DNA from: Shewanella sp. MTB7
GTDB taxonomy: Bacteria; Pseudomonadota; Gammaproteobacteria; Enterobacterales; Shewanellaceae
Assembly (NCBI RefSeq): GCF_027571385.1
Contig: NZ_CP085636.1
Span: 1,364,001 to 1,428,000 of the forward strand
Direction of reading: 5' to 3'
Length of the DNA stretch: 64,000 bases
Position numbers and translations under genes: made by a program. The number at the start of each line of letters is the position of its first letter. Position 1 is the first letter of the stretch. Positions 3,766-10,936 of this stretch are shown here, one piece after another. The notes below the pieces were generated by a model that saw nothing but the letters and a program-made list of their open reading frames with translations, was not told the origin of the DNA and ran no database searches.

Positions 3766-3841
3766 GGTATTATCTATCGTGTTTAGCCTAAACAGCGTTA
3801 AGCTATATGGCAGTAAGTGGGATGAATATCGTGGGATTTTA

Positions 3842-3892
3842 CCCTTTCATCCAACAGAGTTCAATTTCAATGAACTCTGTTGGATGAAAGGG
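3842..3892. repeat. 22-bp perfect inverted repeat (long hairpin)
   Basis: Bases 3842-3863 and 3871-3892 are exact reverse complements around a 7-base loop; the inner arm reads CATCCAACAGAGTTCA. There is no T-run on either side, so it is not a standard terminator. It lies 77 bases upstream of the start of the minus-strand pseudouridine synthase gene and about 350 bases upstream of the ATP-grasp gene. It could be an mRNA leader structure, a large operator or a mobile-element remnant. Confidence 0.8.
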
Positions 3893-4243
3893 GGGTTGAC
3901 AGAGTCAGGTGCTGCTATTTAGTTGTGTTTTATTTTAGTTATCCAAAAATTAATGTTTGTTGTACATTTGTTTAATGTTTTTTTGTTTAAAATACAGTTG
4001 GTTACTAAAATAAACTTGTTATCTATTTGTGCATTAATTTATAAGTATTCTAAGTTTATGTTTTGGTGTAAATTACGCGACCTTATCTAGCTCTGTGCTA
4101 GCTAAACCGAATGTAAACTTGGTTGTTTTAGTCTCTTACTGTGAGATATCAATCATTGTGTTATGTACTTCGAATCCTCTATTACTCACTAAGCCTTTAT
4201 GTGGCAAAGATCGTTAGAGCATTCTTTATCTAAGGAATTTTGA
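3893..4243. other. AT-rich intergenic region upstream of the ATP-grasp gene
   Basis: This stretch is very AT-rich (long T and A runs at 3920-4060) and holds no convincing ORF on either strand. It probably contains the promoter and 5' leader for the ATP-grasp/QEGLA pair. An AAGGA ribosome-binding site sits at about 4231-4235, just before the ATG at 4244. No clear sigma-70 hexamers or known riboswitch could be picked out. Confidence 0.5.
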
Positions 4244-5281
4244 ATGAATATTTTATTTTTGATGTACCCATGGAGCGATGTTGAGCCTGAAACAGACTCA
4301 ACCTTAAGAATGATCCATGAGTGTGTAGCTCGAGGCCACACGGTCGCCCTTACGACGCCACATAACTTAACCATGAGAGATTCTGAGGCGAGTGCTTTTT
4401 GTCAAATATTTAGCAAAGATGACGTAGTGCCGAATAACATCGTCTCTTTCTATAAGAAGGCTATATTTAAAAAGGCACGTTTACCGTTAGCAGGTTTCGA
4501 TACCATTATCATGCGTGCGAATCCGCCTTTGAATCCAATCGCGCTTAACTTTTTAGATTCAGTTCGTGATGAAGTGTTCATCATGAACGATATTGACGGT
4601 TTACGTATTGCCAATAATAAGCTGTATACCGCATCATTTGACGATCCGACTAACGCATTTATTCCAGTGACTCATGTGTCTAAAACACCAGAGTATTTAG
4701 AAGAAGTATTGAGAGAGTCTAAAACTGACAAGATGATCATGAAGCCACTCGATGGTTATGGTGGTCAGGGTGTTATCTTAGTTGAAAAGCACGCTCAAAA
4801 GAGTTTCCACTCTTTACTTGAGTTCTACATCAATAGCGGTAAGGGCGGCAACTACGTTATTTTACAAGAATATGTAGAGGGCGCTGATGCTGGTGATGTG
4901 CGTATTCTAATGCTAAATGGCGAGCCTATTGGTGCAATGAAGCGTATTCCAGCACAAAATGAAGTGCGCTCAAACATTCATGCTGGCGGCACTGTGGTTA
5001 AGCACGTATTAACTAAAAAAGAGAAAGAGCTGTGTAAACATATCGGTCCTAAGCTGGTTCGAGATGGACTGTTTTTTGTTGGTATTGATGTTATCAGTGA
5101 AAAGTTGATTGAAGTTAACGTGCAGAGCCCTGGTGGGATTATGCGTATCAACAAGTTGAATAACGTCAAATTGCAGAAGAAGGTTATCGACTTCGTTGAA
5201 AGTGTTGTTAACGCCAAAGAAGTACTAAGCCAGCGTAAGACTGAATTCAGAAAGGCGATTGAAGATGCTCACGTTATCTGA
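4244..5281 (+). CDS. GshB-like ATP-grasp ligase (RimK/glutathione synthetase superfamily)
   Basis: A 345-residue protein resembling prokaryotic glutathione synthetase across its length. The N-terminal substrate domain contains IIMRANPPLNP, matching the MRxDPP motif of GshB. The ATP-grasp core has KPLDGYGGQGV, then QEYVEGADAGDVRILMLNG, and a metal-binding end FVGIDVISEKLIEVNVQSP. The family joins a carboxylate to an amine using ATP. It is unlikely to be the main gshB, because it is paired with a DUF1704 gene that starts before this one ends (17-base overlap). Its product may therefore be a modified peptide, protein tail or small dipeptide instead of glutathione. An AAGGA site precedes the ATG. 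The class is sure; the substrate is unknown. Confidence 0.85.
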   Translation: MNILFLMYPWSDVEPETDSTLRMIHECVARGHTVALTTPHNLTMRDSEASAFCQIFSKDDVVPNNIVSFYKKAIFKKARLPLAGFDTIIMRANPPLNPIALNFLDSVRDEVFIMNDIDGLRIANNKLYTASFDDPTNAFIPVTHVSKTPEYLEEVLRESKTDKMIMKPLDGYGGQGVILVEKHAQKSFHSLLEFYINSGKGGNYVILQEYVEGADAGDVRILMLNGEPIGAMKRIPAQNEVRSNIHAGGTVVKHVLTKKEKELCKHIGPKLVRDGLFFVGIDVISEKLIEVNVQSPGGIMRINKLNNVKLQKKVIDFVESVVNAKEVLSQRKTEFRKAIEDAHVI

Positions 5282-7259
5282 GAATGAATGTATTGAGCTC
5301 ATTAAGAAGGGCGAGTGCTTTCAAGCTGAAATCGATGGCGGTGCATTTATCGTTAAGATCGACGAGTATTCTCCCATGGTCTGTACCGCGATTCATAACG
5401 GCCACAGATTAAGAGATGATCTCAAAAAAGCGTTCTTGCTGACCAAAGATGAACGATTTTATGAAGAAGATCCTTACACTGATGAGTTGATCTCTTCATT
5501 TCCAATCGTGTTGATCGGTAATGACTCACGCTTTGAATATGACCTCAATCGAGCAAAAACCTTGTCGACGTATTATAAAACGGCATGGAATAAGCAAGTT
5601 TGGCATAAGCCTTTATCGCCTAAGCAAAGGGCGTTTAGCCATGCTAAGCATGAGTCATTTTATAATGTGTTAGAGGCCATTATTACGCGATTAGAGATGA
5701 TGTTTAATAACAGCATCATTTTCGATCTGCACTCATACAATCATCAAAGGATTGAAAAGGACACGCCGACGTTTAATATCGGTTCTGGTCAGATCGATGT
5801 TGAGCGTTGGGGCTCAATTTGCCAGCATTTCGAATGTGAGTTGAATAAGATAACGCTACCTAATTTAGCGGTTAGGGCGGCCACGGATGAGGTTTTTCAG
5901 GGACGTGGTTATCTGATTGCTCACATCAACGCTCACTTTGACAATACGTTAGTGTTACCCGTTGAAGTTAAGAAAGTGTTCATGGATGAGAGCAAAGGTG
6001 AGGTGTATCCACTTGTTCTTGAAGAACTAAAGGCGGGCGTTAAGCACGCCATTTCAGAAACCGCTGCTCACTTTATGCGCCGCTTTGGTAAGCGTAAAAA
6101 AGTGAGAAACGTGGATCTGCTCTCCTCTTCATTGGCGCCTGAAATACTCAGCTTGGATAAGCAGTTGTACACACTTTGTCGGAGTGTTGAGACCCTTAAA
6201 TTTATTAACCCAATAAATATTGGTAGTGAGCGTAAGAAGTTCTTGAGTAAAAAAGGACTTGTCGCGCCTGAGTTTAATTATAAACAGTTAAATATTAACC
6301 CTTATCAATTTAGGGAGCAGCTGTATAAACTGCCTGTTGGACGTGTGATGGATGCCGATATTCAGCAACTATATCGCCACGTCATCGATAATTTGGCTAC
6401 TAAAATAGAGCTTATCTCTTCGATTGGTAGTGATAATTTTGTTTACAATTCATTGAAATATTATGGTGAGCCCGATAAGAACGACTTGGCTAATGCTGAG
6501 TTTATTCTTCGCGCCCCTATGATTGAAGGTGAAGAGGAAACTGAGCGACATTCTGCTGACTATGCGGTTGATTATTTCCGTATAAAAGCCAGCGAATGGG
6601 GGTTTGATTGTAAGATCGAACAGTCATCTAAAATTGTTGCTAAGGCCATGGTCGACAATGATAAAGGCTGCTTACTGATCAATAAGGATGCGGTGTTTAC
6701 ATCCAAGGAATTAGTGGCTTTTGCATATCATGAGCTAGGTGTGCATATGCTGACGACTGTGAATGCTAAGGGTCAAGATCTGAAAGTGTTCTCCTTAGGC
6801 TTAATGGGTAATACTCAAGCCCAAGAAGGCTTAGCCATTTACAGTGAATACTGTTCGGGTAATCTGACGCTAAGTCGTTTGAAAACCTTAGCACTTAGGG
6901 TCATTGCGGTTAATTTGATGCTGCAGCAAAGAGAGTTTATCAATACCTATCAGACACTAGTTCAGCAATACGGTGTCAGCAACGATGAGGCGTTTACCTT
7001 AACGACTCGAGTGTATCGTGGCGGTGGGTTTACTAAAGACTACTTATATTTAAAAGGCTTTAGAGATATCGTTAACTTAAGCAAAGCCATGCCACTTGAT
7101 AATTTACTTGTGGGTAAAACAGGGTTATTAGATCTACCGACGATCAATGAGATGGTTGAACGAAATCTATTGAATAAACCTGTATCTCTATTTGATTTAC
7201 AGCTTAAACAGCAGCAACCTCAATCGATTATCGATTACCTAGTGTCGGCAATTCGTTAA
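5265..7259 (+). CDS. N-formylglutamate amidohydrolase-like domain fused to DUF1704 (QEGLA-motif) zincin
   Basis: A protein of about 664 residues with two parts. Residues ~20-280 resemble N-formylglutamate amidohydrolases (IHNGHR near 45-50, FDLHSYNHQR near 155-164). Residues ~290-664 are DUF1704, annotated as 'flavohemoglobin expression-modulating QEGLA motif protein'. HELGVH at about 489-494 is an HExxxH zinc motif, followed about 25 residues later by QEGLAIYSEY with its likely third ligand. DUF1704 is also the catalytic domain of eukaryotic tubulin tyrosine carboxypeptidases (MATCAP/TMCP), so peptidase activity is inferred. ATG 5265 is preferred to TTG 5259 because AAAGG at 5251-5255 is correctly spaced. 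It overlaps the ATP-grasp gene, and a terminator follows. Confidence 0.85.
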   Translation: MLTLSENECIELIKKGECFQAEIDGGAFIVKIDEYSPMVCTAIHNGHRLRDDLKKAFLLTKDERFYEEDPYTDELISSFPIVLIGNDSRFEYDLNRAKTLSTYYKTAWNKQVWHKPLSPKQRAFSHAKHESFYNVLEAIITRLEMMFNNSIIFDLHSYNHQRIEKDTPTFNIGSGQIDVERWGSICQHFECELNKITLPNLAVRAATDEVFQGRGYLIAHINAHFDNTLVLPVEVKKVFMDESKGEVYPLVLEELKAGVKHAISETAAHFMRRFGKRKKVRNVDLLSSSLAPEILSLDKQLYTLCRSVETLKFINPINIGSERKKFLSKKGLVAPEFNYKQLNINPYQFREQLYKLPVGRVMDADIQQLYRHVIDNLATKIELISSIGSDNFVYNSLKYYGEPDKNDLANAEFILRAPMIEGEEETERHSADYAVDYFRIKASEWGFDCKIEQSSKIVAKAMVDNDKGCLLINKDAVFTSKELVAFAYHELGVHMLTTVNAKGQDLKVFSLGLMGNTQAQEGLAIYSEYCSGNLTLSRLKTLALRVIAVNLMLQQREFINTYQTLVQQYGVSNDEAFTLTTRVYRGGGFTKDYLYLKGFRDIVNLSKAMPLDNLLVGKTGLLDLPTINEMVERNLLNKPVSLFDLQLKQQQPQSIIDYLVSAIR

Positions 7260-7350: not shown

Positions 7351-8223
7351 TTAAATAGTTTGATAAGGAAGTGGAATTGGTTTTTGAGTGATTTTGTGGT
7401 CATGGGTCACAGAGACTAAATGATTACGCTCTACCTTCTTCCATATATTAATATCGTCAGTTAACGGCTCTGAACACACAATCATGCACATTTTACTTTT
7501 GTCATCAGTTGGGGTGATTCTGACCACACCTTCAATACATGATAGAGAGCCAGTACCGTAGAATAATGAGGCGGGTTGAGCACTTTCTAACGTAGCGAAT
7601 CGAGTCACAATGGTATTCACACCATCGGTCACTGCAAAGTTGATAAAGGCATTGGTATTCGCGCCACACAGTTTACGTATTTGCATTATTTTTTCTATGG
7701 TTGCGACCATCGCCACCTCTAACTGGATTAAACTTGCCTTTGGATTAAATTTGAGTTGATCCATAAACAGAGCAAAAGCATATTCAGAATCGGTATTCCC
7801 CTTAATTAAGCTAAAGGCGCGATCTGATAAGCTGTTGAGCAGAGTACGTCTAAAAGAATCAAATAGGTCTAAACGTCCGTTATGCATCCATAAATAATGC
7901 ATGCACTGAAAGGGGTGGCAGTTAGCTTGGCTTACTGGCATGCCTACGGAGGCATCTCGGACATGGGCAAAGTAGTGATGGGTTTGCACCTTATCGCCGA
8001 TCATTTTAAGATTTCGATTACTCCATGCTGGATCGACGTTAACAAAGGTTGCGGGTATTGGATCGTCTTGAATTGGATACCAACCTAGGCCAAAACCATC
8101 GGCATTAATGGGGATTTTTCTTTTTTGAGAAAACTTGCTTTGACTTACGAGTGAATTTTCAGCTTGAAAAATCAGCGGTGACATGACCGTTGCCGGGCCA
8201 CGGTAGGTTAAAAAACGACACAT
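7351..8223 (-). CDS. Class II glutamine amidotransferase (YafJ-like)
   Basis: A 290-residue stand-alone Ntn-type glutamine amidotransferase. The protein begins MCRFLTYRGP; after removal of Met1, Cys2 is the N-terminal nucleophile. The YafJ pattern continues with NADGFGLGWY, FAHVRDAS and HNGRLDLF, where the Asn-Gly pair forms the oxyanion hole, and GNTDSEYAFAL. No second synthase domain is present, so the acceptor of the released ammonia is unknown. It is monocistronic, with a terminator on its downstream side and the pyrC terminator upstream. Confidence 0.9.
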   Translation of the reverse strand: MCRFLTYRGPATVMSPLIFQAENSLVSQSKFSQKRKIPINADGFGLGWYPIQDDPIPATFVNVDPAWSNRNLKMIGDKVQTHHYFAHVRDASVGMPVSQANCHPFQCMHYLWMHNGRLDLFDSFRRTLLNSLSDRAFSLIKGNTDSEYAFALFMDQLKFNPKASLIQLEVAMVATIEKIMQIRKLCGANTNAFINFAVTDGVNTIVTRFATLESAQPASLFYGTGSLSCIEGVVRITPTDDKSKMCMIVCSEPLTDDINIWKKVERNHLVSVTHDHKITQKPIPLPYQTI

Positions 8224-10153: not shown

Positions 10154-10936
10154 GTGTTAAAACATAAAGAATATCCAAGAGTCGGCCCTGATTATCGCTT
10201 CGGTGAACAGATTAGCTTTAGCGATATAAAAAAAACCTTTGGTTTAAACCATATTCGACTTGGTCGTTGGGTTGAAAAGGATGAGAGAGATAAGGCTGCT
10301 AACCTCATCTTTGATTCGTTGGCCGATCTTGCTTTTATCCTTAAGCTTCCTCCCCATGCTTTAGGGCTAAGGCAGACCTTAAATCTGGCCTTTGGTACTG
10401 GCGGTCAAAAAGGCGTCCAAGCGCACTATACACCAGCACATCGAGAGTTGGCCTTGGCTAAAAATGCAGGAGCCGGTGCCTTGGCCCATGAGTTTTGGCA
10501 TGCCTTTGATCATTATATCTCCTCAAAAGCATATTACACTTCACCTGTTGGGATCTCCTTTGCCAGCAGTTGTTGGTTGGCTGATACTGCGCCAATAAAG
10601 CATCCCTTAAATCAACGCTTGGAGCAACTGCTTGCTACGGCCTTGCTTACCAATGATGGCACCGATGCTAATGAGTTTGTTAGCCGAGCTGTGGCGTTAG
10701 ATAAAAAGTATGGTGGGCAGTATTTTGCTAAACCTACCGAGTTAATGGCGAGAGCTTTTGAAGCTTGCATCGAATTCTATCTAGACATCAATAATCCCTA
10801 TTTAGTCAATGAGACCTTGAGCTCTTCGTTAGCTAAAGCGGGAGGGTATCCAACACTTGAACATCGTCAACGTATTTTTACTGCGCTTATCGCTTATTTT
10901 GAACCTTTAGGGGTAGCACTAGGGCACGAAAAATAG
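10154..10936 (+). CDS. CLCA_X/LPD1-like zincin domain protein
   Basis: A 260-residue protein with the pattern of stand-alone LPD1-like (CLCA_X) proteins. The central block runs LNLAFGTGGQKG, then AHYTP, then GAGALAHEFWHAFDHY; HEFWH is an HExxH zinc-metallopeptidase motif. LPD1 domains were described in large polyvalent proteins of conjugative elements and phages, while this is a single-domain chromosomal form. The GTG start at 10154 is used because no ATG lies earlier in frame, with a GAAG-type ribosome-binding site nearby. It has no signal peptide. Catalysis is inferred only from the motif; the role is unknown. It lies 39 bases after the DHFR-family gene on the same strand. Confidence 0.75.
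   Translation: MLKHKEYPRVGPDYRFGEQISFSDIKKTFGLNHIRLGRWVEKDERDKAANLIFDSLADLAFILKLPPHALGLRQTLNLAFGTGGQKGVQAHYTPAHRELALAKNAGAGALAHEFWHAFDHYISSKAYYTSPVGISFASSCWLADTAPIKHPLNQRLEQLLATALLTNDGTDANEFVSRAVALDKKYGGQYFAKPTELMARAFEACIEFYLDINNPYLVNETLSSSLAKAGGYPTLEHRQRIFTALIAYFEPLGVALGHEK

Follow-up and report, generated by a model that had tools for sequence, protein, structure and literature searches.

MATCAP is a recently found carboxypeptidase of tubulin tails. The eukaryotic enzyme is reported to cut protein C-termini and its relatives to shorten glutamate chains on tubulin, and the activity of TMCP1, which needs both HExxxH and the EG-motif glutamate, is strongly reduced by E281A and by E316A (PMC10499314). 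In bacteria, RimB, the partner of RimK, removes glutamates from RpsF (PMC11957791), and the Rlo proteases are polyglutamate-cutting enzymes required in medium of low salt; deletion of the ATP-grasp gene rloC cures the defect that arises without them (PMC12239564). Here we describe a gene pair in a stretch of 64,000 nucleotides from Shewanella sp. MTB7 (NZ_CP085636.1, positions 1,364,001 to 1,428,000; hereafter the window), encoding a GshB-like ATP-grasp ligase and a fusion of an N-formylglutamate-amidohydrolase-like (FGase) domain to a MATCAP/DUF1704 zincin domain (Table 1). The pair is real and conserved, it is probably mislabelled, and a mechanism in which an amide is made by one enzyme and broken by the other is plausible.

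As in RimK-RimB, which acts in S6/RpsF glutamylation, an ATP-grasp ligase would be joined here by a peptidase undoing its additions. RimB, however, is aspartic and retropepsin-like, whereas the hydrolytic domains here are of the M14-like FGase and zincin types, and the window ligase is GshB-like, missing the cut-off of the RimK-family profile TIGR00768 (85 versus 143.4 bits); it passed Pfam RimK (69.5 bits). A scan of the pair and of five flanking proteins gave no retropepsin-like RimB domain (PF05618). RloABC of Pseudomonas aeruginosa likewise combines an ATP-grasp gene with a polyglutamate-cutting peptidase and has a low-osmolarity phenotype (Rlo), but it includes a membrane protein and secreted aspartic proteases, neither of which the window pair has. 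Related ATP-grasp/peptidase neighbourhoods are probably discussed by Iyer et al. in their 2009 work on amidoligases. Our literature search, mostly of titles and the starts of abstracts among the papers listed, found no functional study of the pair, nor of the role of bacterial MATCAP relatives.

The sequence-only reading had described an ATP-grasp gene with GshB features overlapping a gene that joins an FGase-like domain to DUF1704 with HELGVH and QEGLA motifs, and coordinates, profile matches and motifs all agreed with this description. The fusion scored 58.1 bits against the FGase profile (cut-off, 28.9), 314.4 bits against the MATCAP profile PF08014 (cut-off, 27) and 368.7 bits against TIGR02421 ("QEGLA"). 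In alignments, each of the three active sites had its expected residues in the window proteins. H491, E492, H496 and E523 aligned with human MATCAP (7z5g), and these four as well as R584, R587, K593, D594 and Y597 were kept in all 123 rows with settled ligase status of a table of 126 aligned fusions, duplicates included; the rows set aside (L074, L077 and L085) keep them too. The putative FGase site comprises H46, E70, N97/R98, H158 and E236, which, judging from their conservation and the M14-like fold, would bind metal or substrate.

An AlphaFold2 model of the fusion (mean predicted local distance difference test score, 92.2; predicted template modelling score, 0.89) replaced an earlier one, built from 13 sequences, that was weak in the FGase domain. 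In fold searches with the model, the predicted zincin domain matched the MATCAP fold at about 20% identity in the structure alignment, as the sequence-only reading would lead one to expect, this being a comparison of folds and not of metal geometry. The likeness to the MATCAP/TMCP tubulin carboxypeptidases thus covers the fold, the HExxxH and EG motif residues, and the aligned Arg and Lys-Asp residues, but the window protein is bacterial and carries the FGase domain. The latter, as modelled, matched the N-formylglutamate amidohydrolase fold (2q7s, 2odf) and desuccinylase folds; unlike 2q7s and 2odf, it shares its chain with MATCAP and is associated with a ligase. A sequence search of the PDB found nothing with the FGase profile and chance matches only with the single fusion.

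We propose the ligase as the bond-forming enzyme of the pair. It matched GSH-S_ATP with 191.8 and GSH-S_N with 80.3 bits (Pfam), passed the cut-off of PRK12458/NF009110 (486.9 versus 408 bits), and belongs to a profile that matches Escherichia coli GshB (1gsa), with which it shares the two-domain ATP-grasp architecture and the catalytic residues. R91, K126, K167, Q208, D218, R220, R234, R242, N244, D282, E290 and N292 were kept in all 112 adjacent copies (102 distinct). The positions that varied among the 29 tabulated for these 112 rows were P269 (96), S295 (108), G298 (105) and four others with one change each. Gly297, present in every copy, is Thr in the canonical GshB of the window's genome.

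Co-occurrence of the two genes turned out to be high for this subfamily. The ligase lay directly upstream of the fusion, on the same strand, in 74 of the best 80 of at least 576 loci from a scan of species genomes, a choice that biases the set to the window's own subfamily. By NCBI phylum, 48 of the paired loci were from Pseudomonadota, 24 from Bacteroidota and one from Planctomycetota, with one unassigned; the six without the ligase were L074, L079, L081 and L095, plus two at which a contig end forms the start of the stretch (L077 and L085). Among 146 genomes of the window's family, 38 had an NF009110 ligase (E <= 1e-100), each adjoining a fusion, and 7 of the 45 long-frame (fusion-type) MATCAP genes had no ligase. 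Across 150 genomes of the phylum there were eight ligases over the cut-off (the window's included), seven adjoining a MATCAP gene and the eighth starting 48 bases from a contig end. Sequence distances of ligase and MATCAP were correlated over 75 loci (r = 0.72, a value reached in 0 of 999 permutations), as expected of a unit inherited or transferred together. The other neighbours were scrambled, LysR genes occurring at 33 and DUF413 genes at 28 of 81 loci (window included) and no further family at more than 8. Carriage on plasmids or phages was rejected as an explanation, with matches in 127 of 72,556 plasmid records, Sinorhizobium accounting for 79, and in 1 of 50,697 phage records.

Three architectures were found. 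In the first, as in the window, the ligase precedes FGase::MATCAP. In the second, FGase, MATCAP and ligase are separate genes, as in two rhizobial plasmids inspected out of the 127 matching plasmid records and in three genomes of the same phylum (G006, G037 and G093); G113 has a MATCAP-ligase pair, with FGase either a few genes off or not seen. In the third, MATCAP stands alone, in frames of 450 to 490 amino acids at 57 places among the PF08014 matches listed for the 146 family genomes, and also in further genomes of the window's class; two of the 57 were inspected, and the inspected stretches gave no ligase match and no FGase match. In addition, two genes of 377 to 393 amino acids are close to the window's MATCAP and lack any FGase. 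Since MATCAP alone is common, its link to the ligase is a trait of the subfamily and not of DUF1704 as a whole. At L188 (1765-4777), a three-gene ligase/MATCAP operon is adjoined by genes for a PF05618 protease, for a product of 509 amino acids and for an ATP-grasp protein whose best Pfam match is ATPgrasp_ST; we presume a likeness of these genes to the rlo trio.

New in this analysis is the observation that fusions without a ligase have a damaged FGase site but retain the MATCAP residues. Of 103 distinct ligase-linked copies, 100 had N97, R98, H158 and E/D236 all in place, versus none of the 9 distinct ligase-less ones. The host genome of the window (6.37 Mb, one contig) carries such a copy elsewhere (L003:7626-9653; G000:C1 about 4,765,600-4,767,650), a second FGase::MATCAP gene that has no ligase and is preceded by a DUF413/maoP gene together with a divergent LysR gene; its FGase site is decayed (D, Y, K and H at the four residues) and its MATCAP site intact. 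The ligase therefore seems, from these alignments, to be coupled to the FGase site rather than to the MATCAP site, and any couple of writer and eraser would be ligase and FGase first. The coupling of ligase to DUF1704 described by the sequence-only reading holds for the subfamily, but MATCAP also occurs free of both ligase and FGase, and the tie seems to be to the FGase site.

The pair probably serves something other than glutathione synthesis, since 22 of 28 carrier genomes lacked both gamma-glutamylcysteine ligase families (PF04107 and PF04262), although many of the 28 are draft metagenome assemblies in which the absence of gshA may reflect incomplete data. These carriers were mostly Bacteroidota (L075 is gammaproteobacterial), with the window's own genome left out; PF04107 was found in four and PF04262 in two others. 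A strong GshB-like gene (>260 bits) was present in 27 of the 28, twice in one of them, and was by position the paired ligase in 26 of the 27, the exception being L085. All 19 further gammaproteobacterial carriers had a canonical GshB (461 to 494 bits) and a second GshB-like gene (272 to 292 bits), the latter taken to be the paired ligase, with the position checked for L067 only. The window's genome, too, encodes a canonical GshB separately (GSH-S_ATP, 268.5 bits). Glutathione synthesis as the main role was thus rejected. An ordinary glutathione synthetase accompanied by glutathione-degrading hydrolases is a highly improbable account of the pair: the ligase passed NF003573, "glutathione synthase" (283.9 versus a cut-off of 272 bits), and keeps the catalytic residues of GshB, but it missed TIGR01380 (238.4 versus 299.05 bits), and, unlike E. 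coli GshB, it belongs to a separate subfamily (PRK12458) that is also present where gshA was not found. The label "glutathione synthase" probably misleads, as does "flavohemoglobin expression-modulating", which, as the sequence-only reading had remarked, explains none of the features of the pair.

The reading that we favor, tentatively and at somewhat less than an even chance, is that ligase and hydrolases form a make-and-break module for a glutamyl-type amide, like RimK/RimB or Rlo. It draws on these two systems, on the tubulin-trimming relatives of MATCAP, and on the gene neighbours at L188. The ATP-grasp enzyme would activate a carboxylate with ATP and join it to an amine, most likely giving a glutamyl chain that is soluble or borne on a peptide rather than glutathione. 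The direct counterpart of the ligase would be the FGase domain, which would cut an amide next to glutamate and thereby undo or edit this product, and the MATCAP domain would trim C-terminal residues of the same or a related peptide and could also act without the ligase. What we observed is the pairing of the genes, their domains, conserved sites and folds, and the presence or decay of ligase and FGase site together; the direction of the chemistry, glutamate as the shared residue and an osmotic role are what we infer. The module would probably be used when salt falls: in RNA-seq of Photobacterium damselae at 1% versus 3% NaCl, RS17020 ("GshB") was reported to be up 38.4-fold and RS17025 (QEGLA) 27.5-fold (PMC10308900). 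We take these genes to be the ligase and the fusion since their tags are consecutive and the same arrangement is present at L067 of that species. The clade-2-specific genes listed for Vibrio vulnificus include both VV2_1203 (COG3930) and VV2_1204 (glutathione synthetase) (PMC3091676).

Several points weigh against the make-and-break module. The assignment of glutamate comes from relatives and not from a test of the binding pocket, and no substrate or product was seen in this sequence analysis. The NF003573 match and the draft state of many assemblies in the gshA survey are to be counted here as well. The salt response comes from one species and one study, whose authors discussed the gene as GshB (PMC10308900). 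The coupling has exceptions: L099 and L107 keep an intact ligase beside a damaged FGase site and are therefore real ones, the ligase-linked L047 has one change in this site, and L074, truly ligase-less on a later reading, keeps N97, R98 and H158 and has lost E236 alone. Moreover, losses are few. The ligase changes state about five times on the tree, and of four independent supported pairs, three went in the expected direction, none in the opposite one, and one was a tie (sign test, p = 0.25, where fewer than six pairs cannot reach 0.05).

A small-molecule pathway not involving polyglutamate, in which the ligase together with FGase would produce and recycle a metabolite resembling a dipeptide, or shield an amino group, is unlikely. 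Small molecules are the substrates of GshB, FGase and succinylglutamate desuccinylase, and the predicted FGase domain matches the folds of the latter two. One locus (L187:4158-7110) has an AstE_AspA deacylase (M14-like) in place of FGase before its MATCAP gene, with no ATP-grasp match nearby. Against such a pathway, no additional gene for it recurs at the paired loci, as the neighbour counts given above show.

That MATCAP is an independent processing peptidase, linked to the ligase merely through the fused FGase domain, we consider very unlikely. In its favor, MATCAP-only genes are common and the MATCAP residues persist in fusions that lack the ligase. Furthermore, in three-gene loci the MATCAP N-terminus is a degenerate FGase-like region (94.9% probability in a profile comparison, FGase motifs lacking) beside an intact separate FGase. 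These same loci nevertheless keep MATCAP beside the ligase, though FGase is a gene of its own.

The sequence-only reading had suggested a writer and eraser of a peptide or protein tail. The conserved pair, its sites and its folds agree with this; no substrate protein, on the other hand, was conserved with the pair across phyla. The protein-tail version, in which the ligase adds C-terminal residues as RimK and TTL do and MATCAP, FGase or both remove them, is to our minds rather unlikely. Besides the action of MATCAP on protein C-termini, it can draw on the ATP-grasp-like motifs reported in TTL domains (PMC3520985) and on maoP (DUF413), the one recurring candidate partner, which lies upstream at 24 of the 80 loci (in Vibrionales, Alteromonadales and Cellvibrionales only) and stays beside four ligase-less fusions (L003, L079, L081 and Vibrio HDW18). 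The last residue of MaoP was hydrophobic in 14 of 25 same-strand genes of MATCAP loci (one of them downstream, L077) versus 1 of 24 others, a difference (Fisher p = 0.0001) between rows that are not independent, 9 of the 14 being from Photobacterium. For comparison, DUF413 was read in 24 of 30 loci, the pattern used having missed the other 6, in stretches of 2.2 to 3.3 kb; within these stretches no MATCAP or FGase match lay beside DUF413 in the 30 loci, and two (L218 and L225) had a weak ATP-grasp match (24 to 28% identity). Against a tail substrate, no DUF413 gene adjoined the pair in the window, on either rhizobial plasmid or at the Bacteroidota loci, MaoP tails were acidic in most of the 24 other genomes as well, the Vibrio HDW18 copy ends in EED, and no conserved substrate gene was found among the neighbours of 81 loci. 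The MaoP tail was accordingly rejected as a conserved substrate, acidic tails being general and no such gene adjoining the pair among the other phyla seen, and we keep its hydrophobic end as a lead only.

A bolder version would make the pair the bacterial counterpart of the tubulin tyrosination/detyrosination cycle: a TTL-fold-related ligase would extend an acidic protein tail, possibly that of the nucleoid protein MaoP in many Gammaproteobacteria, by a residue, MATCAP would remove this residue, FGase would edit glutamyl branches, and eukaryotic MATCAP would derive from such a module. This we judge quite unlikely.

LysR genes like those beside maoP also lie near three-gene operons that have no maoP (L185, L186, L188 and L189), and it may therefore be the module, not maoP, with which the regulator is associated. 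They may be HdfR-like; that of L188, the one scanned, has LysR domains. At L106 (6613-6903), a protein of 96 amino acids with no Pfam match, encoded 76 bases upstream of the ligase, ends in EEDLDY, which may be compared with the DLDY end of Photobacterium MaoP. Small proteins with an acidic C-terminus, PA3496-like in Colwellia and others in Cytophagales, encoded upstream of the ligase, were dismissed as too few and unrelated.

The module is of interest mainly because it places MATCAP in a bacterial context and provides a condition that can be tested. It gives bacterial MATCAP a defined partner enzyme and a second hydrolase whose site seems to be kept mainly with the ligase; together with the strong expression at low salt, known from one species, these allow the substrate to be sought directly.

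Table 1. Features of the ligase/fusion locus, in window positions
Feature	Position	Strand	Basis
GshB-like ATP-grasp ligase (PRK12458 subfamily), 345 aa (amino acids)	4244..5281	+	Pfam GSH-S_N and GSH-S_ATP, NF009110
FGase::MATCAP fusion, 666 aa from TTG	5259..7259	+	Pfam/NCBI profiles, AlphaFold2 model
FGase (M14-like amidohydrolase) domain, residues 38-238	5370..5972	+	Profile match
MATCAP/DUF1704 zincin domain, residues 326-663	6234..7247	+	Profile match
HELGVH metal/catalytic motif, residues 491-496 (H491, E492, H496)	6729..6746	+	Aligned with HEIGTH of human MATCAP 7z5g
QEGLA motif, residues 522-526 (E523, presumed third metal ligand)	6822..6836	+	Aligned with EEGLA of MATCAP
478-nt stretch 5' of ligase	3766..4243		No long reading frame

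The mechanical start of the fusion is TTG at 5259; many relatives are 2 to 3 residues shorter and begin at the equivalent of ATG 5265. This ATG, two codons further on, is probably the real start, judging by the relatives, and the overlap of ligase and fusion is therefore 17 to 23 bases. Neither DUF413 nor any further conserved gene was found in the 478-nt stretch before the ligase, and its plus strand gave no sigma-70-like match. A defence system was rejected, there being no PADLOC match. Convergent with the fusion lies a gene for an EgtC-like class-II glutamine amidotransferase (7351-8223, minus strand; TIGR03442, 172.1 bits, cut-off of 218.65 not reached), which was dismissed as a module member since it is in no neighbour cluster common to other loci. 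At 10154-10936 (plus strand), a CLCA_X family protein (354.7 bits) with a HEFWH motif is encoded, a second putative zincin within 3 kb.

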